Shown: positions 3,451 through 54,234, counted from the first letter of the stretch. The stretch: DNA of 64,000 bases from a virus (IMGVR_UViG_3300049427_000004:62001-126000), one strand, 5' to 3'. The notes: a model not told the origin generated them from the letters alone. Numbers and translations: made by a program.

Positions 3451-3615
3451 TTAGTAATCAATCATCTCTTCTCGGCCATTTTCAGTCAAAGCAAGATGTT
3501 CATCATATTTGAATTCTCTGGCTTTGTAGTCTTTCTTTGGCTTAGTGAATTTACCACTTGTGAATTTACGATCCTTCTGCATATATTGTTTCTTATTACG
3601 TTCGTCTTGTTTCAT
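3451..3615 (-). CDS. Hypothetical basic protein, 54 aa
   Basis: ATG with GGGAGGAAAT upstream. Lys/Arg-rich first 35 residues, acidic end. Lies between the nucleotidase and the 77-aa gene in the same direction. Unrecognised. Confidence 0.55.
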   Translation of the reverse strand: MKQDERNKKQYMQKDRKFTSGKFTKPKKDYKAREFKYDEHLALTENGREEMIDY

Positions 3616-3624
3616 ATTTCCTCC

Positions 3625-4152
3625 CTAGACTCCAAAAAAGTTAGCAATGTCATTCCAGTTTTTCACTCGCTTAAAACGATTTTCATCTTTATTATGAGAA
3701 GCATCAAAAAGAAGTTTATTATCTCCCTTAAAGGTCTCTAAGTTGTGAGGCGCATCATCGATTAGGCTATCAGCCAAACAAATGCTTTTATTAACTGCAT
3801 AGACTACATTCTCTCTTTTTATGAATGGAAAATGTGTTTTGATCCATTTTGCTTTTGCAGGAATAACAGAAGCATTCCTTGCTGCTGTGACAATAAAGAC
3901 GTCATATTTTTCAGTAAGTTTTTTTACAATTTCTTGTGAGCCGTGAATCACAGGTAGGTTTTCAAACATATCTGGAGTTAGCATCTGATAAATCTTCTTC
4001 CCACACTCAGGCCTTGTAAGTACATGCCAATCCCACATCGTAATATCAGACACGTTTAAAGTATCATTGTATGTATTGTTATATCTATCAACCCAAGGTG
4101 TAATTAAATCAGCTAAGACATGATCTTGATCAACACAAATTCTTTCTTTCAC
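3625..4152 (-). CDS. 5'(3')-deoxyribonucleotidase-like HAD phosphatase
   Basis: 175 aa, GTG start behind GGAGGTTAAAA. The N-terminus carries a HAD-type motif I (ICVDQDHVLAD, the two catalytic Asp near residues 7 and 9), then VFIVTAARN as motif II and ICLADSLIDDAPHN as motif IV, the order of the NT5C nucleotidases. It would remove phosphate from deoxynucleoside monophosphates. It sits directly downstream of a guanylate kinase and near an Nmad1-like gene, which together suggest a phage nucleotide-pool or nucleotide-modification module. Confidence 0.8.
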   Translation of the reverse strand: MKERICVDQDHVLADLITPWVDRYNNTYNDTLNVSDITMWDWHVLTRPECGKKIYQMLTPDMFENLPVIHGSQEIVKKLTEKYDVFIVTAARNASVIPAKAKWIKTHFPFIKRENVVYAVNKSICLADSLIDDAPHNLETFKGDNKLLFDASHNKDENRFKRVKNWNDIANFFGV

Positions 4153-4154
4153 TT

Positions 4155-4685
4155 TTAACCTCCAATAATATCTCTGACATCCTCAACAGCATCCTCTAGA
4201 AATCCTAGTTTGTTTGTCACAACATAGTCATAGTACACAAGATTATTAACTTCATCGTCGTATGTTTTAAGACGTTTAGATATATCTTCTTCTGTATCTC
4301 CTCGTTGTCTCATATTGGACTCTACTGTTTCACGATCACAATAAATGAAAATTGACACGCAATTACTATGTATAGCTTTCATTTGACGCATTCCTTTGTT
4401 ATCACAGATGAAAAATGTATCGCCTTTTCCTAATTTGGATTCATATTCTTCACGAGTTACTCCATAAAAATTTCCACTATAATTTGTATGTTCAATCAGT
4501 CCATTATTATTGAGCAGTCTATCGAATTCAGATTGTTCTATGAAGATATAATCTACTCCATCAATTTCACCTTCGCGTGGCTTTCTGGTTGTGAAAGAAA
4601 CAATTTCTCGATCCATGATAGATCGTAGGACTGTTGTTTTGCCTGAACCAGATGCTCCTGAAACTAAGATTAGCTTATTCTGCAA
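4155..4685 (-). CDS. gmk: Guanylate kinase
   Basis: About 176-179 aa. P-loop GASGSGKT near the N-terminus, followed by the GMP-binding signature FTTRKPREGEIDGVDY and the ...NYSGNFYGV segment of guanylate kinases. It would convert GMP or dGMP to the diphosphate. Start uncertain: GTG at 4694 has AAAGG too close, so the TTG at 4685, with GGGTGA at normal spacing, is preferred. Its end is 2 bases from the nucleotidase start. Confidence 0.82.
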   Translation of the reverse strand: MQNKLILVSGASGSGKTTVLRSIMDREIVSFTTRKPREGEIDGVDYIFIEQSEFDRLLNNNGLIEHTNYSGNFYGVTREEYESKLGKGDTFFICDNKGMRQMKAIHSNCVSIFIYCDRETVESNMRQRGDTEEDISKRLKTYDDEVNNLVYYDYVVTNKLGFLEDAVEDVRDIIGG

Positions 4686-9511: not shown

Positions 9512-9589
9512 TGGTGGACTCTGTGGGGCACGATCCCACAACCTACCGCTTATGAGACGGTTGCTGCTAACCAGTTGAGCTAAGAGTCC
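9512..9589 (-). tRNA. tRNA-Ile2 (CAU anticodon, lysidine type)
   Basis: Cloverleaf: 7-bp acceptor GGACTCT/AGAGTCC, encoded CCA end, anticodon stem ACCGT/GCGGT with loop CTCATAA (anticodon CAU), T stem GTGGG/CCCAC. The acceptor start and CTCATAA loop resemble bacillar tRNA-Ile(CAU), which needs TilS lysidine modification to read AUA, rather than tRNA-Met. The D stem appears shortened to 3 bp. The T loop is ATCGTGC instead of the usual TTCGANN: positions 54 and 58 look swapped (A and T). Confidence 0.8.
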
Positions 9590-10083: not shown

Positions 10084-10332
10084 TTAGCTTTTAACTGACA
10101 TGTATTCATTTGTAGTCGATTCAATTGCATCTATATCACCTCTGAAAACAGTGATCCATTTCGATAATTCATGCATATTTATTACATTTTCTTTTAAAAC
10201 TGAGTATGTATTTGAAGCTTTATCAATTCCACAGCAATGTTCAATCCACAACAGAAAGCTATCAGGATCATCTTCCCATTTCTCTAGTAAATCATCAATA
10301 TTAATCAAAATTGCTTCCCCCTCTGAATTCAC
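10084..10332 (-). CDS. Hypothetical protein, possible LytTR target
   Basis: About 82 aa from a GTG at 10332 with AGGAAA upstream; the frame stays open to an ATG at 10425 that lacks a ribosome site. Acidic N-terminal half (LLEKWEDDPDSFLLWIEHCCG). It is the first gene downstream of three TGTCGA repeats and lies next to the LytTR regulator, so it may be the regulated output. Function unknown. Confidence 0.5.
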   Translation of the reverse strand: MNSEGEAILINIDDLLEKWEDDPDSFLLWIEHCCGIDKASNTYSVLKENVINMHELSKWITVFRGDIDAIESTTNEYMSVKS

Positions 10333-10438
10333 TAGACAATATTTCCTATATATGTAGTATATAAGATCTATATATGGAAATGAATGATCAATTGCTATTA
10401 AAATTATGTATTGACACATAAGCATTTTTTTGCTCTTG

Positions 10439-10507
10439 TGTCGACAAAAAAAGGATAAAGTGTCGAAAAAGACTCAATCCATTGTAATGAACAGAATACT
10501 TTGTCGA
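10439..10507 (-). promoter_or_regulatory. Spaced TGTCGA repeats, candidate LytTR operator
   Basis: TGTCGA occurs at 10439, 10461 and 10502. The first two are in the longer context TGTCGAMAAAA and exactly 22 bp apart, the spacing of the paired direct repeats bound by LytTR dimers. They lie between the LytTR gene and the next gene downstream. No binding data; inference from spacing and position. Confidence 0.4.
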
Positions 10508-10567
10508 ATACTGTAGATTACTGATATTTTTCTTTTGTGATCACGCAAATCCAACGCAAAAACTAAA

Positions 10568-11071
10568 CTATCTGCTCCCTAATGGCGAATATTCAAATAC
10601 GTCTCTTACTGACTTATTGAGGTATAGATCTCTTTCTTTACCTAATTCAGATTTTAGTACACCTCTAATCGCAGCTCCAGATACAGGAATAGAATGCTCT
10701 TTTGTGAAGTAAACACGATGTAAATTAGAGTGATACCATTGAATCATTTTCATATTAACCAATAATCCATTATCTAATTTCTTAAACTTGAAATTATCTA
10801 CAAGATGATCCTGCATGAACTCTAGATTCACATTAGAAGTTATCACCTCTCCAGTAACGAGAAAGATATTCGTTACATTATTTTTAGGATTGATAGCGTA
10901 TAGAATGGCTTCTACATCTACATTTTTTGCTCTATCTATTTTAACGGGAATGGAAATAAATTGTCCATTCTCCAGATTTTCCGAAATCCAATCACCTAAC
11001 TCCGCAAACTCATACTGCATAAAATTCTGCTCGTTGATTGTTTCTTTAATAAAATCTCTTCTAGTTTTCAT
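10568..11071 (-). CDS. LytTR-domain transcription regulator without receiver domain
   Basis: 167 aa, ATG at 11071 with GAGGTG upstream. The last about 105 residues match the LytTR DNA-binding domain (NIFLVTGEVITSN, KKLDNGLLVNMKMIQ, VYFTKEHSIPVSGAAIRGVL). The first about 60 residues do not resemble a response-regulator receiver: no conserved Asp/Lys pattern. This makes it unlike AgrA and more like HdrR/BrsR, LytTR regulators held in check by a partner membrane protein. It is the last gene of the agr-like cluster. Confidence 0.75.
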   Translation of the reverse strand: MKTRRDFIKETINEQNFMQYEFAELGDWISENLENGQFISIPVKIDRAKNVDVEAILYAINPKNNVTNIFLVTGEVITSNVNLEFMQDHLVDNFKFKKLDNGLLVNMKMIQWYHSNLHRVYFTKEHSIPVSGAAIRGVLKSELGKERDLYLNKSVRDVFEYSPLGSR

Positions 11072-11119
11072 TAAAGTACACCTCATTTCGTTTAATTGAT
11101 GTTAATCGGGTTGTGATTT

Positions 11120-11151
11120 GCTTGAGTGTACCCCATAAGGCACACCCAAGC
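11120..11151 (-). terminator. Hairpin between signal peptide gene and LytTR gene
   Basis: GCTTGAGTGT pairs with ACACCCAAGC (9 of 10) around a 12-base loop. No U-run follows, so it could stabilise the upstream mRNA or set the ratio of peptide to regulator rather than terminate fully. Confidence 0.4.
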
Positions 11152-11181
11152 ATAGTTATGTATTGTTATAAAAATTATGTA

Positions 11182-11322
11182 TTACTTACGCGGATCTAAA
11201 AACCAAACAATTTTTGATGTTGTGATGACAGTTGGGATTGCTAGAATGAGCGCTAACAAAGCTGTTGCGACAGATGACTTTTTAATATTTCTCACCTCCA
11301 TTATAAAATTAACGATACTCAT
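11182..11322 (-). CDS. AgrD-like cyclic autoinducer peptide precursor
   Basis: About 46 aa. Layout as in AgrD precursors: short amphipathic, basic N-terminus (IMEVRNIKKSS), hydrophobic helix, then a conserved-length C-terminus TTSKIVWFLDPRK. No cysteine is present, so a Ser would have to form a lactone ring, as in GBAP of Enterococcus. Start unclear: ATG at 11322 (GAGATAACT upstream), ATG at 11301, or an unusual ATT placed ideally behind GGAGGTGAGAAAT. Overlaps the membrane protein gene and is adjacent to an AgrB. Confidence 0.65.
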   Translation of the reverse strand: MSIVNFIMEVRNIKKSSVATALLALILAIPTVITTSKIVWFLDPRK

Positions 11323-11977
11323 AGTTATCTCTTCTAAAAGAAAGATATAGCAGAATGAGAGTTGAAACAATTAATACGAAAACAAAGATAAGTATTAAGT
11401 GAACATTATTATCATGATGCATACAAATATAGAGAACTCCACTTATAATTAAGATCAATGATACAGTAGCTGTTAGAAATTTTGTGTGTCCACCTTTATC
11501 CAAAGTAAAAGAAAAACCACTTTTACTCCAAATAATGTACAAAGATATTGTTGTTATAAGTGCAGCGTTAATGCTTTGTGTGAAGTAAGCTTTAGTTGAA
11601 AAGGAAGACATTAAATCATTTTCCGTTAGAACTCCGTAATGTAAAAATAATAATACAAGTACTGTTTGAATTAATGTAACTATAACTATTCCTACAGAAG
11701 AAGTGATAAGCATATGTAACTTCTTTTTCTTTGTGATTATAAACAAGAGAATCCAAATTATAAGAAGGTTTATGATTATTGGAGAGACAAAATCGTAAAC
11801 ATTAAATACTACTAGAAGGTATGTGAGAAATGTTGAACCGAGTGTGAGTATTACTAGTTCTTTTTTATAATAAGCAGGATACATATTAAAAAACGCTAAG
11901 ATAAAGAGAAACAAACTAAAATACTCTAGAGAGCTAAAAAACATATACCCTGCAAAATTCACAAAATGATCAACCAT
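11309..11977 (-). CDS. Multi-span membrane protein, candidate peptide receptor without kinase
   Basis: 222 aa with about six to seven hydrophobic segments (roughly 10-30, 40-60, 65-82, 88-112, 133-150, 170-186, 192-212) and a short charged C-terminus. Size and topology match the sensor half of AgrC, but no histidine-kinase domain follows. Located between agrB-like and agrD-like genes, the normal agrC slot in some orders. It could act as receptor, as an HdrM/BrsM-like inhibitor of the LytTR protein, or as an exporter. Role inferred from context. Confidence 0.6.
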   Translation of the reverse strand: MVDHFVNFAGYMFFSSLEYFSLFLFILAFFNMYPAYYKKELVILTLGSTFLTYLLVVFNVYDFVSPIIINLLIIWILLFIITKKKKLHMLITSSVGIVIVTLIQTVLVLLFLHYGVLTENDLMSSFSTKAYFTQSINAALITTISLYIIWSKSGFSFTLDKGGHTKFLTATVSLILIISGVLYICMHHDNNVHLILIFVFVLIVSTLILLYLSFRRDNYEYR

Positions 11978-11983
11978 CTTCTT

Positions 11984-12508
11984 CTACCGCCTCTTCACTC
12001 TTATTAAATCAAACCCTAAAACTAACCACATTGAAAGAAGGATTTCATTAACATAAAACGACATAACACAAAGTAATAAAGATATTATTTTCTTTGTGTA
12101 GAAGTGTTTTGATTCGTCATTGAAAGGTGCAAATATACTGTGCAAAACAATTGCAGTTATGAATGAAATAGTTGGATAATCTTGAACTATGTAGGATAAT
12201 GGAATCACTCCTAGTATAACTCCTATAGTTAAAAAGTAACAGATATCAACTGAAAAATGATGCCCACCATTCCACCATCTAATAAATGCAAATGAGATAA
12301 ATGACAAGAAAAGCTCTAACCATAATCCTGTTATCCACCCAAAGATTAAAAGTGTTAATGTAACTGCTATGTATAGAAGAATAATTTTCAATCTGTTTTG
12401 AATTTCCGTTAAGTCATTATTTTGTTTTTTTATATTTTCTTTTGTTTCATTTTCTAATTGATTCCAGATCCAACTTCCTATGTGTAAAGCTGCTCTTTTT
12501 AGTAGCAA
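11984..12508 (-). CDS. agrB: AgrB-like peptide-processing membrane endopeptidase
   Basis: 174 aa, TTG start behind GGGGATGC. The AgrB signature is clear: RWWNGGHHFSVDIC with the catalytic His and Cys placed as in AgrB, followed by several membrane spans. Known AgrB cuts the C-terminal tail of AgrD and forms the thiolactone or lactone. First gene of the signalling operon, with its own promoter. Confidence 0.85.
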   Translation of the reverse strand: MLLKRAALHIGSWIWNQLENETKENIKKQNNDLTEIQNRLKIILLYIAVTLTLLIFGWITGLWLELFLSFISFAFIRWWNGGHHFSVDICYFLTIGVILGVIPLSYIVQDYPTISFITAIVLHSIFAPFNDESKHFYTKKIISLLLCVMSFYVNEILLSMWLVLGFDLIRVKRR

Positions 12509-12533
12509 TTTTGCATCCCCTTCCGATGTACCT

Positions 12534-12563
12534 AATATATCATGTATTTACTATTCAAGTCAA
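12534..12563 (-). promoter_or_regulatory. Promoter of the agr-like operon
   Basis: Minus-strand TTGACT, 18-base spacer, TATATT, about 25 bases upstream of agrB. The plus-strand promoter at 41117-41146 has the same -35, spacer length and -10. Confidence 0.65.
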
Positions 12564-12600: not shown

Positions 12601-12631
12601 AAAAAAGAAAACCCTAGATCAATATCTAGGG
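12601..12631 (-). terminator. Terminator of the MrpR-like gene
   Basis: CCCTAGAT / ATCTAGGG hairpin with a 4-base loop followed on the minus strand by TTTTCTTTTTTT. It overlaps the stop codon region of the upstream gene and separates it from the agr promoter. Confidence 0.8.
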
Positions 12632-13600
12632 CAATTGATAAACACTTTTCAGAACTTCTTCATTTAAAACGTCCTGTTTTAGACGATATAAATCACCCTC
12701 GGTCTTGTCGTTAAATCGATCCATAATCATGTCATAGTGCTCATCCACTATTTGATTATTATTGGACACGTATAGCTCTTTTAAATAATAGAGCATACCG
12801 CTCTTCGCAATATTAGCTGGTGTGAATGCAGGTTCGTCGATGCTTTTTGCAATTCTAGCCAGTGCGCTATATACAATGCTTACTCTGGCTTCATTGAAGC
12901 TTTTTACGCGAGTTTTTGCTGTACGAATTATATAATTATTTTCAACTAAAGTTGTGAATTCTGACTTTATATCAGCTGCTGGATCTCCATTTGCTTTGTG
13001 ATACCGTTCTTCATTGTAAGCGTTCATACAGATATCAATAGTTTCTTCTGGAACAGGTATGGTTCTACTAAGAGTGTTATCATCATGTAGATGAAGTCTG
13101 TGATTCGCAATATCTATGCTTTCTCTTTGTAAATTTAGTAATTCAGAACCACCTGTGCCCATCACGCCCTGAAAAATCAATTCAATTATCGCTTTATCTC
13201 GATGATTTACTCTGCCTCTGATTATTTTATTGATTTCGTCTCTAGTCCAAAACCTTTTCAGTACTTTGTTCGCGAACATTTGCTTCCACTCAGTATCAAC
13301 GAAGTCTAAAGGGTTAGTTCCAGTCTTATATCCAAGTTCTAAATTCCAATCAATATATTTCGATACATATGCTACGTTTGCCCCACTGGAAGCTTTTGTG
13401 GCTGGTCTAAAGAGATAAAATAGCTTCAATAGATCATCACGATTGAAATCAGCTAAGTCCTTATCGAGTTGTTCTTCAAGAGGTTGAGACACTTTAAAGA
13501 TTCTTGCGTTAATTTCTCTCGTTCCCTTGCTTTTAGTTGCCAGATATTCAAATTTGCGGTCTTGATTATATAGTCGGTCTTCATAGACAACATTAGACAT
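12626..13600 (-). CDS. Integrase-fold regulator, MrpR/YopR-like
   Basis: 324 aa, ATG behind GAGGAGAAATTT. It has the architecture of a tyrosine recombinase (N-terminal core-binding helices, C-terminal domain), but I cannot find the catalytic R...HxxR...Y set: the R-I region reads GTGGSELLNL. Its length and catalytic loss resemble SPbeta YopR (MrpR), the master repressor of lytic genes. The upstream DndB/YopQ-like partner supports that. If correct, this is the lysogeny repressor of the element. Confidence 0.65.
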   Translation of the reverse strand: MSNVVYEDRLYNQDRKFEYLATKSKGTREINARIFKVSQPLEEQLDKDLADFNRDDLLKLFYLFRPATKASSGANVAYVSKYIDWNLELGYKTGTNPLDFVDTEWKQMFANKVLKRFWTRDEINKIIRGRVNHRDKAIIELIFQGVMGTGGSELLNLQRESIDIANHRLHLHDDNTLSRTIPVPEETIDICMNAYNEERYHKANGDPAADIKSEFTTLVENNYIIRTAKTRVKSFNEARVSIVYSALARIAKSIDEPAFTPANIAKSGMLYYLKELYVSNNNQIVDEHYDMIMDRFNDKTEGDLYRLKQDVLNEEVLKSVYQLP

Positions 13601-13621: not shown

Positions 13622-14968
13622 TTATTCAAACATGCTTCTTAATTCTTCTTGAAAATACTTTCTAATCAATTCTTTACTTTGGTTGGAATTTCTATTTCCT
13701 TGCTCTAGCATAATTTTGTCTAGTTTATTACCAGTTCCTTTTGTATAGTCAATCGTTTCAATTCCTTGAGTAATTAGACTAACAGGAAATTCTAATGATC
13801 CATTATATTTGTCGTAAATCAATTTTGCTAAAATCATAAATCCGCAGTGCATATTGTGATGATTAAACCAGCTTACAGAACGTCTTTTTTTCATGTCTGT
13901 TTTAAAATCTTCTGGGTATGCAGACAAGAAATATCCATAAAACTTTTTCAAGAAATCAGAAATCTCATACATCTCTTTTGTGCTTTCTGGTTTAAAGGTA
14001 ATATTTATTGAGTCAGCAAGTATTGAGTAGTTTGTGATCATATTCAAAGTCTTGCTTACAGTAGTCTTATCTGTTTCTACTCTATCTCTTAGTTCTGGAA
14101 TTTGAATCAAGTTTTTGGTTACTAGACCACCGAAAGAGTCATCTGTATTAAATCTTACTAAGTTCTTATCAAAGCGATTGACAGTATTCAATAATCCGAT
14201 ATGGTAACGAGCCATATTTAAATCATAATTACGAATCGAAACTTCAAATGATCCTTCTAAATCAGGATTCTCTTCCAAAGCTGCCATGGTTCCCATCAAA
14301 CGGTGCATGCCGTCTACAATGTTGAGGTTCGTTCCCTCTTCAATAATCAAATCCCCATCTTCGTATTCATAATTGTCATTTCCATCTGCAAGTATGTTGA
14401 AAGTTAATGTTGACTTAAGAAATTTACCTTCAAGCATTAATCTTGCGATATTATTCACGCTCTTTTTTATTACTGTAGGAGTTTTTTTGATGTTTCCTTT
14501 TGCCATTAACTTTTTCTTAGGTGCTCTTTGTGTTTCATAGTTATACGTCAAAAGACCTGCGTTCCATATCTTTTTAAGTTCTTGGTAAGTGATTAATGTT
14601 AAAAATTCATTGTGAGATGCTCTCAGTACACCTTCAATGACATAGGGAAATTCAAACCTGTCCTCTTGTTTCAGTTTAAGTTTTAATCCTTTTTGAATTT
14701 CTTTCTCGCTAAAAAATAATGTTGGAGCAATTCTTTCGTCTTTAGCAATCACATGCATTGCATGAATAATACAAATTAATTCTTCTTGGGTCAAGAAATT
14801 CAGTTTTTCATTATCATTCATGACTTGATCAAAAGTACCAAAAGTCATTTTGTGCTTCTGTGCGAGATATTCATCGATTTCTCTCAATTTGTCCTTATCT
14901 TTTGTCAAATCTGCAAACACTTCATTTATTGATTCTAAGATGTCTTTCTCTTGTGCTACTTCGCTCAT
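13622..14968 (-). CDS. DndB/DGQHR-like protein, YopQ-type
   Basis: 448 aa, ATG behind GAGGAGATGTTT. Contains VDGMHRLMGTMAAL near residue 220, the DGQHR-type signature of DndB-like proteins. SPbeta carries a similar-sized gene (yopQ) next to yopR, and the same order is seen here, with a 21-base gap before the integrase-fold regulator. Molecular function unclear; in DNA phosphorothioation systems DndB is regulatory. Confidence 0.6.
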   Translation of the reverse strand: MSEVAQEKDILESINEVFADLTKDKDKLREIDEYLAQKHKMTFGTFDQVMNDNEKLNFLTQEELICIIHAMHVIAKDERIAPTLFFSEKEIQKGLKLKLKQEDRFEFPYVIEGVLRASHNEFLTLITYQELKKIWNAGLLTYNYETQRAPKKKLMAKGNIKKTPTVIKKSVNNIARLMLEGKFLKSTLTFNILADGNDNYEYEDGDLIIEEGTNLNIVDGMHRLMGTMAALEENPDLEGSFEVSIRNYDLNMARYHIGLLNTVNRFDKNLVRFNTDDSFGGLVTKNLIQIPELRDRVETDKTTVSKTLNMITNYSILADSINITFKPESTKEMYEISDFLKKFYGYFLSAYPEDFKTDMKKRRSVSWFNHHNMHCGFMILAKLIYDKYNGSLEFPVSLITQGIETIDYTKGTGNKLDKIMLEQGNRNSNQSKELIRKYFQEELRSMFE

Positions 14969-15217: not shown

Positions 15218-16072
15218 CTACTCAAGAAACTCCACAAACACTGGAGTCATCATATTCCCACTTCTCAAAAATCCTCTATGCTTTACTCTACACTTTATCA
15301 CTGGTTGAATCCAAACACTATTTTCGTTCTCACCAGTTTTCAATGTTTCAGCTAAAGGATAAAACTCCTTTTTCTGTTTTGGCGAAATTCCAAACTCAAC
15401 AAAACCTTTTCCTTCATCATTTTTTAGATACCAACCTACACTATCTTTCCTATAACCAGTTATTACACAGTCTGAGTAATACCAGTTAATAATCTTGTAG
15501 AAAACGTCTTTTGGTCTTTTACCAGCCTGATATCGTGAATCTAGACGTTTGGCTACCATACCCTCCAGTTCATGCTGTTTGATTATCTCAAAAAGTATTT
15601 TCCCTTTCTCTGCTACATAAACAACTTTAGTCATATGTGGTTGATTCTCAACAACTTTATCTAAAATTTGTTTGCGCTCCAATAAAGGTAAATTCAAAAT
15701 AGACTTATTTTTATTAAATAGAATATCAAAAACAATAAATGTCGTTGGAAACTTTTTTACTGCAAATTCAACACTGATACTCTTCTTACTTGTTATTCGA
15801 CTCATTACAGCTTCGAAATCCTCTTTTAATGGGTTTTCTGGATCATAACAGACTAATTCTCCATCCAAAATAATACCCTTATCAACCTTAAGAGAAGTGA
15901 TTTCAGGTAAACTTGAAGTTATGTCATTACCATGACGAGTAAAGAGTTTAATTCCATTTTCAGAACTAATCAATTCCAGTCTAACTCCATTTGCTTTGGG
16001 TTCAAAAATAAATTTACTTGAATCAAAAGGAGTTTCACGACTATCAAGTAGCATAGGTTCAATGAACTTCAT
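15218..16072 (-). CDS. ATP-dependent DNA ligase (LigB/LigD type)
   Basis: 284 aa. The nucleotidyltransferase motif I is EPKANGVRLE (catalytic Lys near residue 27), followed by FTRHGNDITSSLPE, ILDGELVCYD (motif III), FDILF, EGMVAKRLDSRY (motif IV) and KIINWYYSDCVITGY (motif V), then an OB-fold C-terminus. Length is that of a minimal ligase; no polymerase or nuclease domain. It starts within the Ku stop (ATGA overlap), so the two are coupled for end joining. Confidence 0.88.
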   Translation of the reverse strand: MKFIEPMLLDSRETPFDSSKFIFEPKANGVRLELISSENGIKLFTRHGNDITSSLPEITSLKVDKGIILDGELVCYDPENPLKEDFEAVMSRITSKKSISVEFAVKKFPTTFIVFDILFNKNKSILNLPLLERKQILDKVVENQPHMTKVVYVAEKGKILFEIIKQHELEGMVAKRLDSRYQAGKRPKDVFYKIINWYYSDCVITGYRKDSVGWYLKNDEGKGFVEFGISPKQKKEFYPLAETLKTGENENSVWIQPVIKCRVKHRGFLRSGNMMTPVFVEFLE

Positions 16073-16908
16073 ATAGTTGCTTTCCTTTGTGTTAATTTCT
16101 TCTTAGTTCTTGGCGCTGTTTCTTCAGAAGGGACTATGAGAGGTTTCTTTGTTTTTTCAATTGAAGCCTGAAGCATATCCATTAAATTCGAACCTTCAGA
16201 CTCATTAGAACCAATTTTATCGACTTGATCATCTTCAATTTTTGCATTAATCAAAGTCATCAAATCTGACCTATATTCATTTTGATATTTTGTTGGATCA
16301 AATGAAACTGTCAGCTGCTCTATTAATAACTTTGCTACACTAAGTTCTCTTTCATCAACAGCTTCCTCGGAAATGTTAGGTACATTCTCTACTGGTCTTA
16401 CTTCATCTGGAAAATGAATGGTTTCTAGAATGATTGATTTTTTATATGTCCGTATAACGGCTAGTTGCTGATTTGAGCGCATTGTAATCTTGGCTATACC
16501 AACCTTGTTTGTGTCAGTTAAAACTCTCCTCAAGAGCGAATAGGCACGTTTATGACCATCTTCTGGTGATAGGTAATAACTGTTGTTGAAGTATATAGGA
16601 TCGATCTCTTCAATTTTAATAAAATCAACAACTTCTACATTCTTAGCCTCATATTTATTTTTAAGTTCTTGAATCTCACTATCATCAATAACAACATACT
16701 TATCTTTTGCATATTCATATCCTTTAACTACATTTCCGTCAGCAATAATTATATCTTTTTCAGATGTGGTTTTTACTTGTTTTATTGGTTCGAGCGTGTC
16801 CTTTTGGAGATTTTTAAATTTTATGTCCTTGTCCTCAACAGCACTATGTAACTTCACACTTATGTTTAGAAGACCAAAAGAAATATTCCCTTTCCAAAAT
16901 GTGTGCAT
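16069..16908 (-). CDS. ku: Ku protein for non-homologous end joining
   Basis: 279 aa. ATG at 16908 chosen because AAGGGTGG lies upstream and the family start MHTFWKGNISFGLLNISVKL begins there. Bacterial Ku beta-barrel features: YEYAKDKYVVIDDSEI, YFNNSYYLSPEDGHKRAYSLLRRVL, LAVIRTYKKSIILETIHFPDEVR. The C-terminus is Lys-rich. It would bind DNA ends and recruit the overlapping ligase, possibly to circularise the genome or repair breaks. Confidence 0.9.
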   Translation of the reverse strand: MHTFWKGNISFGLLNISVKLHSAVEDKDIKFKNLQKDTLEPIKQVKTTSEKDIIIADGNVVKGYEYAKDKYVVIDDSEIQELKNKYEAKNVEVVDFIKIEEIDPIYFNNSYYLSPEDGHKRAYSLLRRVLTDTNKVGIAKITMRSNQQLAVIRTYKKSIILETIHFPDEVRPVENVPNISEEAVDERELSVAKLLIEQLTVSFDPTKYQNEYRSDLMTLINAKIEDDQVDKIGSNESEGSNLMDMLQASIEKTKKPLIVPSEETAPRTKKKLTQRKATI

Positions 16909-17020
16909 AAAAATACCACCCTTCAGTTTTACATTTAGGATGGTCTGGTTTTTTATCAAATATTCAATTACGCCTTTATTAATTCTTAATACATTTCTTT
17001 ATTTCAAAGTTACTCAAATA

Positions 17021-47758: not shown

Positions 47759-49999
47759 CTACTCATTCTTCAACATGCTCTCCAAAAATGTCTGTCTTCT
47801 CAAATTATCCACCTTACGCATAGCATAATTCAATGTCTCAGCTTGAGTTAAAATGATACAATAGTCAACAGCTCTCGTGATCGCAGTATAGATTAAGTTG
47901 CAGCTTAACTGGAATTTATGAGATCTGTCTGCAATAATCAAAACAGCCTTACTACTACTCCCTTGACTCTTGTGACAGGTTATACTCCAAGCATGGATCA
48001 ACTGGTTCATCTCATCTAATGACAATTTAACTGTATCATCATCAAATTCAATGATAGTTCCTCTAGGGTCAACCATTATCTCATCTTCATTTCCTTCTTC
48101 ATCTTGAACATACTTTATGTATTTTTCACCTTCTAGGACAATGTTCTGTATTGTTCCACTATCTCCATTTACAATCGTGACTGCTTCGCCTTCATCATTT
48201 TCAATTCCATATGTATTTTTTACATTCATAACATAATCATCTTGTCTAAAGGTCATATAGTCACCGTACTGATATTCAACCTTGGCTTCTGTTTTAGGAT
48301 TAACAAGTTCTTGAACGTACTTGTTAATTTCCACCGTACCGATTTCCCCTTTTTTCGTGGGAGTTAATACCATGATATCCATAGGGTCAAATTTATTGAG
48401 ATATTTTTTGTAATAATGTTTGTATCCATCTTGCATATGATTTTGATCAACACAATGAATGATTAGATTTTCGCCAAACTTCTTCACACCTGAGAAATTG
48501 TCGTCAATGAATTTCTGCTTCATTCGCACACGGCTTGCTATATCAAGAATGCCACCTTCACTTTGGCGAAACACAATATCCAACATAGTCGCTGGAATCA
48601 CTTTGCTTTCAATTGCATCGTGCAATATATTTCCGCCCATGACCGCAGCAAGCTGAGCAGAGTCACCGCAAAATAATATCCTTGCTTTTGGATTAGTTAT
48701 TTTAGATAATAGCATCTGCATTATGAAGATATCAGTCATCGACATCTCGTCTACCACAATTACATCAGCGTCAACTTATATCAATTGTCTTTGCTCTTTG
48801 TCTTTTCCATATCCAATAGCTCTATGTATAGTTTGTGCTTGCCTTCCTGTATAACTTGACAATAGTTTGGCAGCTTTACCTGTAGGAGATAGTAAAACAT
48901 AACTCATTCCTAACTCCTCTAATAATTCAACAAGCAATCTTTGCATCTGAGTTTTCCCTGTACCAGCATATCCTACTAATAGTGAGGCAGAATGCTTTTT
49001 AACATTATGAAAAAATTCCTTCTGTTGCTCAGACAAACCATGTTTTAAGGTATCTTTATATTTGACTTCCATGCGATGTATAAATTCATTTGGGTCAAAA
49101 TTTAATTCCATAGAATTATGAAGCATTTGTTTTAGTTTTGTTGCTATGTGTTTTTCAGCTTGATAAGTTTTCAATAAGGCAATCTTATCACCAATAACAA
49201 TAATTCCTTCTGTATTTTTAATTTGTTCGTTTATTAAATTTTCATTGATATCTAAGTTGTCGATAGCTGCTTTAACCATTTTGTCAATTATCATATATGT
49301 ATGACCTTCTTGCTGATTGTTCTCTAGTGTATATTTGATTCCAGATTGAATTCTGAATGGATGATCGAAAACAAACCCCATCTTACGTGCAATGATATCT
49401 GCTTTCTTGAATCCTATTCCACTCACTAGCTCACAAAGGCAGTAAGGATTGTCTTCAATCTTTTGAATAGCTAATTGCACACTTTCAAACTTCTCTGCAA
49501 TTTTCATAACTACATTGTATGTAATTCCATATCGACCAAGTTTAGATAGTAAGTCTCTATGTTCGATATTTTCTAAAACTTTTTTACGTATCTGTTTATA
49601 TGTCTTTTCACCTATACCCTTAACCAATTTAGAATTGAACTTGTCATCCACAATCATTTGGATAATATCCTCGTTTAGATACACTTTAAATAATTCTTCA
49701 ACCTGTTTATCTGTTAAAAGATACCTAAAGAATGATTTTTGATCCTCACCTGAAGATGGCATATCTTGATATATGGAATGACACTCATAACTTGCACCGT
49801 ATTGTGGATGAACCTCGGTTAACTCTACATTGGCAACATACTCCACTCCTAAATCTAAACGCTGCATGACTCCCTTTATTGATGCATTACTGTATTTATT
49901 AAGTTGTATCGCATGGTCTTTGGTGGTACATGAATAAATGCGAAAATCACCTTTATTGAATATCATTTTAATTGGTGTTAATTTAGTTTCAATTATCAT
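47759..49999 (-). pseudogene. RecD2-like helicase interrupted by one in-frame TAA
   Basis: One continuous frame of 747 codons. Before the stop: N-terminal OB and helix-hairpin-helix region (GIGEKTYKQIRKKV, SGIGFKKADIIARKMG), Walker A GYAGTGKT (residues 343-350) and motif Ia LSPTGKAAKLL. A TAA at 48776-48778 (codon 408) follows RQLI. After it the frame reads on through VDADVIVVDEMSM (Walker B), GDSAQLAAVMGG, TCHKSQGSS and YTAITRA, all RecD2/TraA-type motifs. A GTG at 48757 could restart but has no ribosome site. A TCA-to-TAA change would explain it. Confidence 0.75.
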
Positions 50000-51155: not shown

Positions 51156-52208
51156 TTAAGCGTCAATCATGTCTTGTATGGTTAATCCTAGTTTCCGATA
51201 AGCATTAGGATCATGTTCTTTTAATAATTTAAGCAATTCATCTTTATCGACTAGACTGAATACTGCCTCATCAAAGCTTTTCATCATTCTTATTCCTGCT
51301 AGACGACCCTGATCCACATTCTTATCAGTGTAATGATCTACGAGAACCTGAATAGACCTATGTCCCGTTTGGCGAGCAGCCATATAAACATCTCCGCTAC
51401 TTTCTAATTCATAACATGCTCCAACTTTTCTCAAACTATGGGTTGTAATTCTATCCTCTTTAGGAATACCCATCTTCTCAGCGAGACGTTTAACACAATC
51501 ATTTACACTATCAACAGTAAGATTAACAAACACTTTATCAGTGTTTACTGTATTCTCAGTCTTAAGTTGAATCAATTTCTCGTAAAGGTCTTTTTCAAAT
51601 GGAGAAACTGAATACTCATCTCCTTTGTCTAATACTTTTACATTGTAGAAGTCAGTCTTCTTATTGAATTTAATATCTGCCCATGTTGCGGATAACAAAG
51701 CATCAACACGAACACTTGTGATAGCTGCTAAAAGTATGTACAAGTGTTTTTCGAATCCATGGAATTTTTCTTCCAATGCAAGTTCTGCCATAACCTTTAC
51801 TTGCTCTACGCTTAACACACCATAGCTTTTAAAATTAACCTTAAGCGGTTTAACTGCAAAGGCAATATGCTCAACATCATATCCGTAACCTTGAAGCTTC
51901 TTATATACAGTTTTTAGTCCTGCCATTTTCTTATTCACTGTTGCTGGTGCTTCAGGATGCTTCTTTTTAAGGTGATTTCTGTATTTTGTAGTGTGCTTGA
52001 GTGTGATTTTCTCTTTAATTGTACCGTCAGTGATAAATTCCACTTCGTCTTTTGTCATTTCGTTAATTTCTTTGCCATGATAAAACTTAAAAAACTCAGT
52101 CACACACCTGTAGTATTCTTTTTTAGTTTCATCTTTGTAGTCATTCAATACAGTCATAATATCCGTGTACACATTGTTTACTCCAATATTTTGTACTTCT
52201 GCTAACAT
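51156..52208 (-). CDS. Tyrosine recombinase (phage integrase family)
   Basis: 350 aa, ATG at 52208 behind GGGAGATGG. The core-binding domain covers about residues 1-115; the catalytic residues are visible: R in AITSVRVDALLSATW, THSLRKVGA (HxxR), TGHRS (H) and the nucleophile in VDHYTDK. It may integrate the element or resolve multimers. Own consensus promoter. No attachment site could be identified. Confidence 0.85.
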   Translation of the reverse strand: MLAEVQNIGVNNVYTDIMTVLNDYKDETKKEYYRCVTEFFKFYHGKEINEMTKDEVEFITDGTIKEKITLKHTTKYRNHLKKKHPEAPATVNKKMAGLKTVYKKLQGYGYDVEHIAFAVKPLKVNFKSYGVLSVEQVKVMAELALEEKFHGFEKHLYILLAAITSVRVDALLSATWADIKFNKKTDFYNVKVLDKGDEYSVSPFEKDLYEKLIQLKTENTVNTDKVFVNLTVDSVNDCVKRLAEKMGIPKEDRITTHSLRKVGACYELESSGDVYMAARQTGHRSIQVLVDHYTDKNVDQGRLAGIRMMKSFDEAVFSLVDKDELLKLLKEHDPNAYRKLGLTIQDMIDA

Positions 52209-52262
52209 TTCAACCATCTCCCATTCCCAACGTTATATTTTCCAATTTCTTCTTGTGTCTTT

Positions 52263-52852: not shown

Positions 52853-53137
52853 ATGCAAGACTATTTTCAACACGTTGCTAATTCATTGACTCATGACGAC
52901 ATGAAGGTTTTGGCTATTCTCATGGACAACGAAGCAAATGCTGGATTCAAAGCAATGAAGAACGCCGATGTCTTACCTGCCACGCAGTTATCGGAAGCAA
53001 CTTATCGTCGAATTATCTACCGTCTTAGTGCCAACAAATTTGTCGAAATTGTCACTCAACAAAAAATGCACATGCTTTACATTACTGAATTTGGAATGAA
53101 TGCAATTCGAACCACAGTGAATGGAGTTGGTGCTTAG
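52853..53137 (+). CDS. TubR-like winged-helix DNA-binding protein
   Basis: 94 aa, ATG at 52853 behind AAAGGAGGATTG. A winged-helix reading HDDMKVLAILMDNE...ATQLSEATYRRIIYRLSANKFVEIVTQQKMHMLYITEFGM. Directly coupled to the tubulin-like gene (TAGTG overlap), the tubR-tubZ order of Bacillus plasmids. It would bind centromere repeats and link DNA to the filament. Confidence 0.7.
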   Translation: MQDYFQHVANSLTHDDMKVLAILMDNEANAGFKAMKNADVLPATQLSEATYRRIIYRLSANKFVEIVTQQKMHMLYITEFGMNAIRTTVNGVGA

Positions 53138-54234
53138 TGCTTGCTGTAATTGGCTTAGGTCAGGCAGGATCAAACATTTCCGAAGAGGTTGGTAAATACG
53201 GAATATTGAATGGAGCAATAAATTACAGTCAGAAGGATCTCGATGCAGTTGAGGTTAAGCACAAACTCAGACTACTCGGCTCTGAGGGCGTAGGAAAACA
53301 GAGGTTTGATGCAATTAGTCTATTTCAACACCAATGGGAAACTGCAATTAACTTCATTCGTGACAACTTCAGTAATTCAAAGGTCATTGCATTCGCATTC
53401 TCTTCATCAGGAGGATCTGGTTCAGGAATTAGCCCAATACTGCTCGACATGGCTATCCAGATGTTCCCTGATAAAGTGTTCATTTCTCTAGTGGTTATCC
53501 CTGAGATAAAAGAAGCAGAGTCTAGCCAAGTAAATTGTGTTTCGACATTTGAGGAGTTATCTGCTTTAGATGTCGCGGTCTTTCCTGTCGACAACCAACA
53601 AATCCGTAATCAAAATCCTACTGTTGGAAAAAATCGACTTTATGAAATCTCAAATCAAGAAGCTGCTTCCCTCATTTGTAAATTGGCTGAATATACAAGT
53701 AAACATTCTAAAAACGGGAATTTCGATGAAAAGGATCTCTTAACTGTACTAAGAACACGAGGATTAGCAACAATTTCTGAAACACAACTATCATCATCTC
53801 TCCAAAGTATCAATCTCACATCTGAGGGTGTAGCAGATAAAGTCATCCAATCATGGGATAATTCAGTTTTTGCCCCACTTTCATCAGACAGTGTTCAAAA
53901 AGCAGCTGTCATATTTGACGGATCAGAATCTCTTATGGATTTCATTCGAGTAGAGACCTTATTTGAATCCTTTCAAAATCAACCAGTAGATATTTTCGAG
54001 GGATATTATCACGAAGGTAAAGGAAAGATACTGACGGTCTTAACAGGGCTTAAATGGTCATTTAAGAGGTTAGATGATATTGAAAAATCACTTATTAACA
54101 AGCAAAATCATGATGAAAGTGGGATTTCATCTGATATCGGTTACAAGGTTGATTCAAGCATTATTAGAGCATCTGCTAAGAAACAAGAAAAGAAAGTATC
54201 AGTAATGGATATTCTAAGCAAATACAATCGCTAA
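53137..54234 (+). CDS. TubZ-like tubulin/FtsZ GTPase
   Basis: 365 aa, GTG start overlapping the TubR stop. GTP-binding signatures: GLGQAGSN at residues 6-13 (loop T1) and SSSGGSGSG ending at 97 (T4, the tubulin signature). NFDEKD at 195-200 fits the NxDxxD T7 loop needed for GTP hydrolysis in filaments. The basic C-terminus resembles TubZ tails that bind TubR-DNA. Expected role: filament-based partition of a low-copy replicon, or DNA positioning in a phage. Confidence 0.85.
   Translation: MLAVIGLGQAGSNISEEVGKYGILNGAINYSQKDLDAVEVKHKLRLLGSEGVGKQRFDAISLFQHQWETAINFIRDNFSNSKVIAFAFSSSGGSGSGISPILLDMAIQMFPDKVFISLVVIPEIKEAESSQVNCVSTFEELSALDVAVFPVDNQQIRNQNPTVGKNRLYEISNQEAASLICKLAEYTSKHSKNGNFDEKDLLTVLRTRGLATISETQLSSSLQSINLTSEGVADKVIQSWDNSVFAPLSSDSVQKAAVIFDGSESLMDFIRVETLFESFQNQPVDIFEGYYHEGKGKILTVLTGLKWSFKRLDDIEKSLINKQNHDESGISSDIGYKVDSSIIRASAKKQEKKVSVMDILSKYNR

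Follow-up and report, generated by a model that had tools for sequence, protein, structure and literature searches.

The 64,000-nucleotide stretch of viral DNA analyzed here (the window; bases 62001-126000 of the 178,866-base record IMGVR_UViG_3300049427_000004) carries, just after a gene for an MrpR/YopR-like master repressor, an Agr-type signaling module with neither a histidine kinase nor a receiver domain. On the minus strand the order is YopQ/DndB-like gene, mrpR-like gene, promoter, agrB, the gene for a 222-aa membrane protein, a peptide open reading frame (ORF), lytTR, short repeats, a small gene, and tRNA-Met (Table 1). We lean toward the view that this is a phage Agr-type module working without a phosphorelay, in which the receptor would act on the LytTR protein by direct contact and thereby bias lysis-lysogeny in the place of arbitrium. 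An earlier note on this DNA, made from the sequence alone, had listed an AgrB signature, an AgrD-like peptide, a multi-span protein without a kinase domain in the agrC position, a LytTR protein without a receiver domain, spaced repeats before the next gene, and an adjoining MrpR/YopR-like gene, the whole without a kinase. All of these were recovered here, the peptide only in part; what the note implied about the purpose of the repeats was not borne out.

By sequence, the 222-aa protein has no relative in Pfam or the PDB and contains no kinase domain. Its AlphaFold2 (AF2) model shows seven long helices at moderate confidence (predicted local distance difference test 72), and a fold search of the PDB with this model returned nothing significant. 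A hidden Markov model (HMM) built from 13 membrane proteins of the family matched residues 3-228 of a 437-aa kinase encoded beside an AgrB gene (E 1.3e-7; 3.7e-7 against 2407 ORFs as a decoy check), with weaker matches in two further kinases, and Pfam places the kinase domains of these AgrC-type kinases behind the matched N-terminal region. Profile-profile alignment with hhalign against eight AgrC-type sensor domains gave a probability of 95.9%, compared with 0.1% and 3.4% for AgrB controls. Moreover, among 61 family matches in a sample of 400 Bacilli genomes, five fell in frames as long as AgrC kinases (412-453 aa). Because the family matches AgrC sensors by both methods and extends into frames of kinase size, the window protein is most plausibly an AgrC receptor lacking the kinase part, and not the unrelated transporter that the earlier note had allowed for. 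Direct BLAST of this protein against its counterpart in phage Paisley gave no match, and profiles were needed.

The AgrB-like protein exceeds the Pfam cut-off for PF04647, and its catalytic His83 and Cys89, together with Arg76 and Gly81, are invariant across 12 relatives. The candidate signal precursor is a small ORF between receptor and lytTR, the place that it also has in the loci L014, L018, and L078. Its C-terminus, TSKIVWFLDPRK, resembles that of the L018 peptide, TMKILWFGDVRK, and the two peptides have an unusual tail in common (TTSKIVWFLDPRK in the window). The canonical Cys/Ser ring and P-x-P-x-E-L tail were not found in the 39-aa window ORF; AgrD tails elsewhere, such as ASWTLIHGEAVPEELK and NSTWFVHRPEAPKSLLK, are canonical with Ser replacing Cys, as they are in most relatives. 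The proposed AgrD-like peptide thus stands as far as position and C-terminal likeness go, and falls short in the ring and tail. This atypical peptide, and the ability of AgrB-type proteases to process peptides, would suit a different reading, in which AgrB and the membrane protein produce a cyclic antimicrobial peptide and confer immunity to it, with a purely regulatory part for the LytTR protein. We regard this as very improbable, given the typical AgrD tails of other phage copies, the likeness of the membrane protein to AgrC sensors, and the fact that no bacteriocin exporter was seen beside the module.

The LytTR protein lies barely above the Pfam cut-off for PF04397. A profile of 13 relatives finds the LytTR domains of AgrA and ComE in the PDB, and the AF2 model superimposes on the AgrA LytTR domain with a template-modeling score of 0.82 over ~100 residues. 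The N-terminal 41 residues are modeled with low confidence and show no receiver fold. Direct BLAST against the counterpart in phage Davies gave no match, so that here, too, profiles were needed. Several module phages encode a second LytTR-only protein, whose gene is found several kilobases upstream of mrpR or else immediately ahead of the small gene that follows the module (L100, reverse complement 3485-3820; L101, reverse complement 3974-4309; L078:12580-13044; L014:9559-10041).

Nor did searches for a kinase find one in the viral records. HATPase_c_5 had no match in 42 MrpR-bearing virus records, with nine of 14 control genomes positive, and HATPase_c had none in the window's record, nine other module-bearing virus records, or G001, compared with 136 matches in one bacterial control genome; as the records may be incomplete, a kinase encoded outside them is possible. 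In comparison with agrBDCA of Staphylococcus and relatives, the module shares the catalytic His and Cys of AgrB, AgrD-type precursors (in the relatives), the AgrC sensor domain, and the LytTR domain of AgrA, but its peptide in the window is small and atypical and, because neither a kinase nor a receiver was found in the element, it has no phosphorelay. The earlier note had pointed to HdrRM and BrsRM, LytTR regulatory systems (LRS) of Streptococcus mutans (PMC6193735). The likeness holds for a LytTR-only regulator encoded with a small multi-span membrane protein free of enzymatic domains, but as an analogy only: the described LRS include neither AgrB nor AgrD, the module's membrane protein is related to AgrC sensors, and DUF3021 and DUF2154, the known LRS membrane types, had no Pfam match in 13 family members (both are missing also from one of five S. 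mutans LRS proteins).

Single-protein scans with the window's AgrB, LytTR, and MrpR proteins found no relatives, and alignment-based scans did; a nine-row MrpR alignment contained no usable stretch. The MrpR alignment scan yielded 56 viral loci and three bacterial genomes. In nine viral loci AgrB lies directly after mrpR, together with the membrane protein, an AgrD-like peptide, and a LytTR-only protein wherever the locus was read gene by gene, and the same holds for the position of AgrB in a Paenibacillus oleatilyticus prophage and three more lineages (L220, L221, L222). With near-identical copies counted once, the block of mrpR followed by the module is present in 11 distinct phage or prophage lineages. 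Since it recurs with the same neighbors in many phages, the arrangement is beyond chance. AgrB precedes the receptor in the window, L014, L018, and L078, and follows it in the remaining lineages; a similar TGTTGAC promoter separates mrpR from the first gene of the module in the other phages. Presence or absence of the module requires three changes when mapped on the MrpR tree, and well-supported branches force two or more of these.

The surrounding genes place the window among SPbeta-like phages, with an MrpR/YopR protein beside a YopQ/DndB-like gene; the same yopQ-yopR synteny is found in SPbeta, Perkons, and Geobacillus E3, and the closest relative of the window's MrpR is a Paenibacillus prophage copy (46% identical). 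A gene of ~125 aa, function unassigned, lies a few hundred bases after mrpR in the module-free L015, L019, L021, L056, L058, vB_BcoS-136, and FADO, and follows lytTR in module phages of the L016 and L057 type. Therefore, judging by gene order, the module of that type is inserted between mrpR and its usual neighbor. In L014, L078, and the window, the neighbor's place after lytTR goes to another small gene (fam1), whose L078 copy has a weak resemblance, in its C-terminal half, to phrog_32520; the FADO copy of the ~125-aa gene is a member of this family.

The module and arbitrium (AimR-AimP-AimX of SPbeta and phi3T) exclude each other in our data. Among the 42 MrpR-bearing virus records, AimR is present in 18 and the module in 10, and no record has both (hypergeometric P 0.0013 for no overlap, an optimistic value, as related records are uncorrected). 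AimR was not found in the window's record or in the nine other module-bearing virus records searched, and AimR-bearing and module-bearing phages occupy separate parts of the MrpR tree. The two systems are alike in having peptide-signal genes a short distance from mrpR in an SPbeta-like phage. They differ in that the module has no AimR, lies downstream of mrpR whereas aimR lies upstream, and has a membrane receptor and a peptide predicted to be exported, unlike the imported linear peptide that is bound in the cytosol in arbitrium.

MrpR binds SPBRE operators, including one at PaimR (PMC10516654). From SPbeta we recovered a repeated element, CAAATACAAATAATATGTATA, with a site upstream of aimR, which fits the published SPBRE (PMC10516654). 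Within the ~148 of 164 kb scanned of the L014 phage, SPBRE is matched best at the module promoter, immediately before the -35 box, which is also its place at PaimR; a pattern search for the operator in this phage gave three matches at the module promoter and none in the reversed control. SPBRE-like matches in L078, L016, and L017 are weaker and suggestive. Control of the module by MrpR is suggested mainly by one phage, L014.

The module is not phage-specific and is common in Paenibacillus chromosomes. All 25 genomes of the P. oleatilyticus genus group encode members of its receptor family, each between one and seven of them, and at E 1e-10 the family is present in 40 of 400 Bacilli genomes. 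Of the 30 loci read, most have receptor, AgrB, and LytTR protein next to one another, and four have a LytTR domain followed by GGDEF in a single protein (in L127, Pfam GGDEF 2.6e-22 and LytTR 2.7e-8). Receptor-AgrB-AgrD cassettes feeding a LytTR-GGDEF fusion were noted on Paenibacillus chromosomes at L125, L127, L130, and L131; in such cassettes a peptide signal apparently reaches a diguanylate cyclase with no kinase in between. Because the chromosomal cassettes pair the receptor with either a LytTR-only or a LytTR-GGDEF protein, they suggest that the receptor signals to the LytTR domain.

These chromosomal copies bear on two further explanations. The kinase-less switch could control some other trait (sporulation, biofilm, or competition) as host-derived lysogenic-conversion cargo for which mrpR is a convenient insertion site. 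This would agree with the several cassettes per genome found far from phages in Paenibacillus, with a chromosome-like copy in G040 beside collagen-like genes, and with the LytTR-GGDEF outputs. We nevertheless hold it to be rather unlikely, since 11 lineages keep the module after mrpR, with more than one gain or loss there, since the module is exclusive with AimR, and since the unrelated phages Paisley and Davies keep the cassette near integrase or repressor genes. Alternatively, the module could interfere with host Agr signaling, through a foreign peptide, a receptor that soaks up the host peptide, and a LytTR protein that competes for host promoters. The absence of a kinase from the receptor and the related cassettes carried by hosts of the group would fit such a role, but the chromosomal kinase-less receptors are paired with an AgrB and a LytTR protein of their own, so that lacking a kinase is normal in this family and no mark of a decoy; we consider interference improbable.

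A direct, kinase-free switch acting on lysis-lysogeny, the reading that we prefer, would work as follows. From established AgrB and AgrC biology, AgrB would process and export the small peptide, which would accumulate outside the cell and bind the kinase-less receptor. Depending on the peptide, the receptor would hold or release the LytTR protein, its only likely partner in the cassette, by direct contact, as the co-occurrence of the two and the LytTR-GGDEF fusions suggest. The LytTR protein would then change transcription near mrpR and tilt the repressor circuit, so that the choice between lysis and lysogeny would be biased, in one direction or the other, by the density of phage or lysogens. 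For this last step, the position of the module, its exclusivity with arbitrium, and the SPBRE-like operator at one module promoter point to a lysis-lysogeny role. More broadly, Agr receptors without a kinase that signal straight to a LytTR protein, DNA-binding or fused to GGDEF, may form a separate class of signal transduction, widespread in Paenibacillus and taken up repeatedly by phages beside mrpR as a second extracellular lysis-lysogeny system that replaces arbitrium; to this larger claim we give a little less than even credence.

The repeats before the next gene are real: on the minus strand, TTCGACA occurs at 10508 and 10467 and GTCGACA at 10445, with the second and third 22 bp apart. 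Of all 4096 hexamers, TCGACA shows the strongest enrichment in the 300 bp that follow lytTR (9 of 11 lineages; corrected P 1.3e-7). Read on the opposite strand, TTCGACA becomes TGTCGAA, the core of the Spo0A box (PMC3485338, PMC5295017). SPbeta and many other module-free phages carry a TTCGACA-N3-TARGACA-like tandem, its boxes spaced by 10 bp, about 74-253 bases past mrpR. Because these phages have the same tandem, the repeats are probably older than the module, and are better read as putative Spo0A boxes. On the same two grounds, the match to the Spo0A box and the occurrence after mrpR without the module, they are probably not LytTR sites, the reading that the earlier note implied. A tie of the box to LytTR is possible given that Paisley, L104, L132, and L133, which are chromosomal or MrpR-free cassettes, have a TTCGACA box after lytTR as well. 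A Spo0A-like box stands right after mrpR in most SPbeta-like phages of spore formers, which raises the possibility that Spo0A of the host, the sporulation regulator, acts on the lysogeny region. In the Staphylococcus and Mammaliicoccus phages tested, whose hosts do not form spores, no TTCGACA box was found up to 300 bp from mrpR.

Several observations weigh against a lysis-lysogeny switch in arbitrium's place. The AgrD is the weakest element of the module, its window copy being atypical. An SPbeta-type operator was not detected at the window's own module promoter (p 0.54), and the candidate site for LytTR is lost if the TTCGACA repeats are Spo0A boxes. Since the cassettes are common in host chromosomes, the phage copy could serve a host-type function, and, because the module-bearing phages form few lineages, their exclusivity with AimR may partly reflect host range.

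We found no description of the module in open-licence PMC papers. The Clostridioides difficile phage phiCDHM1 carries agrB, agrD, and an AgrC histidine kinase, with no reported regulator (PMC3901668); agrB and agrD in a phage are common to both, but the window has a receptor and a regulator and no kinase. The phages Paisley and Harrison (Paenibacillus) and Davies (Brevibacillus) carry the cassette or its AgrB. They are similar in their membrane protein of ~220 aa, AgrB, peptide of ~40 aa, and LytTR-like protein, and differ in being phages of 44-46 kb in which no MrpR was seen and in which annotation calls the regulator an aminopeptidase or a hypothetical protein. If the reading that we prefer is true, phages would have at least two unrelated peptide languages at one control point, and Agr signaling would work with its phosphorelay removed, giving a simple system for phosphate-free action of a receptor on a transcription factor. 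It would also account for unannotated or misannotated genes of Paenibacillus and Brevibacillus phages, such as a LytTR protein labeled peptidase, and would predict many kinase-less quorum-sensing cassettes in Paenibacillus chromosomes, some feeding cyclic-di-GMP enzymes.

Table 1. Features of the module and its neighborhood, in window coordinates unless a locus is named
Feature	Position	Strand	Basis
YopQ/DndB-like gene, upstream of mrpR	13622..14968	-	PF14072 4.4e-17, phrog_5732 1.3e-78
MrpR/YopR-like master repressor (degenerate tyrosine recombinase fold)	12626..13600	-	Pfam MrpR_N_CB 3e-22, MrpR_C_cat 1.5e-19; PHROG 5830 6.5e-71
Predicted sigma-A promoter of module, just after mrpR	12534..12563	-	-35 TTGACT 12563-12558, TATATT 12539-12534; sequence
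AgrB-like peptide-processing protease, TTG start after GGAAGGGGATG	11984..12508	-	PF04647 7.3e-13
222-aa seven-helix membrane protein, best read as AgrC-type sensor domain without kinase	11309..11977	-	AF2, family HMM, hhalign
AgrD-like putative signal precursor, 39 aa, start codon uncertain, C-terminus TTSKIVWFLDPRK	11182..11301	-	Position, C-terminus likeness
LytTR putative DNA-binding regulator without receiver domain	10568..11086	-	PF04397 8.6e-5
Three TTCGACA-type repeats, Spo0A-box-like, upstream of next gene	10439..10508	-	Sequence
Next gene (fam1), true start probably internal TTG after GAGGGGG	10084..10425	-	Homologues in L014, L078
tRNA-Met (CAT)	9512-9589	-	Past module
TTCGACA box, mostly with second box, after mrpR	L007:7053 (SPbeta), L002, L003, L020, L022-L036, L049, L051, L053-L055, L061, L062, L064, L079, L080

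Elsewhere in the window and its relatives, tRNA-Met (CAT) follows closely on the module and precedes a large early gene that several of these phages share, as it does at L016:9649-9724 and L057:9640-9716. Adjacent Ku-like (16069-16959) and ATP-dependent DNA ligase-like (15218-16072) genes, their translations judged by eye, form a putative end-joining pair. A RecD2 helicase is spread over two adjacent ORFs of the same direction (47759-48757 and 48776-49999), from a split gene, a frameshift, or a sequencing error. A Tubulin/FtsZ-family GTPase, TubZ- or PhuZ-like, is encoded at 53137-54234, beside an integrase gene (51156-52217).

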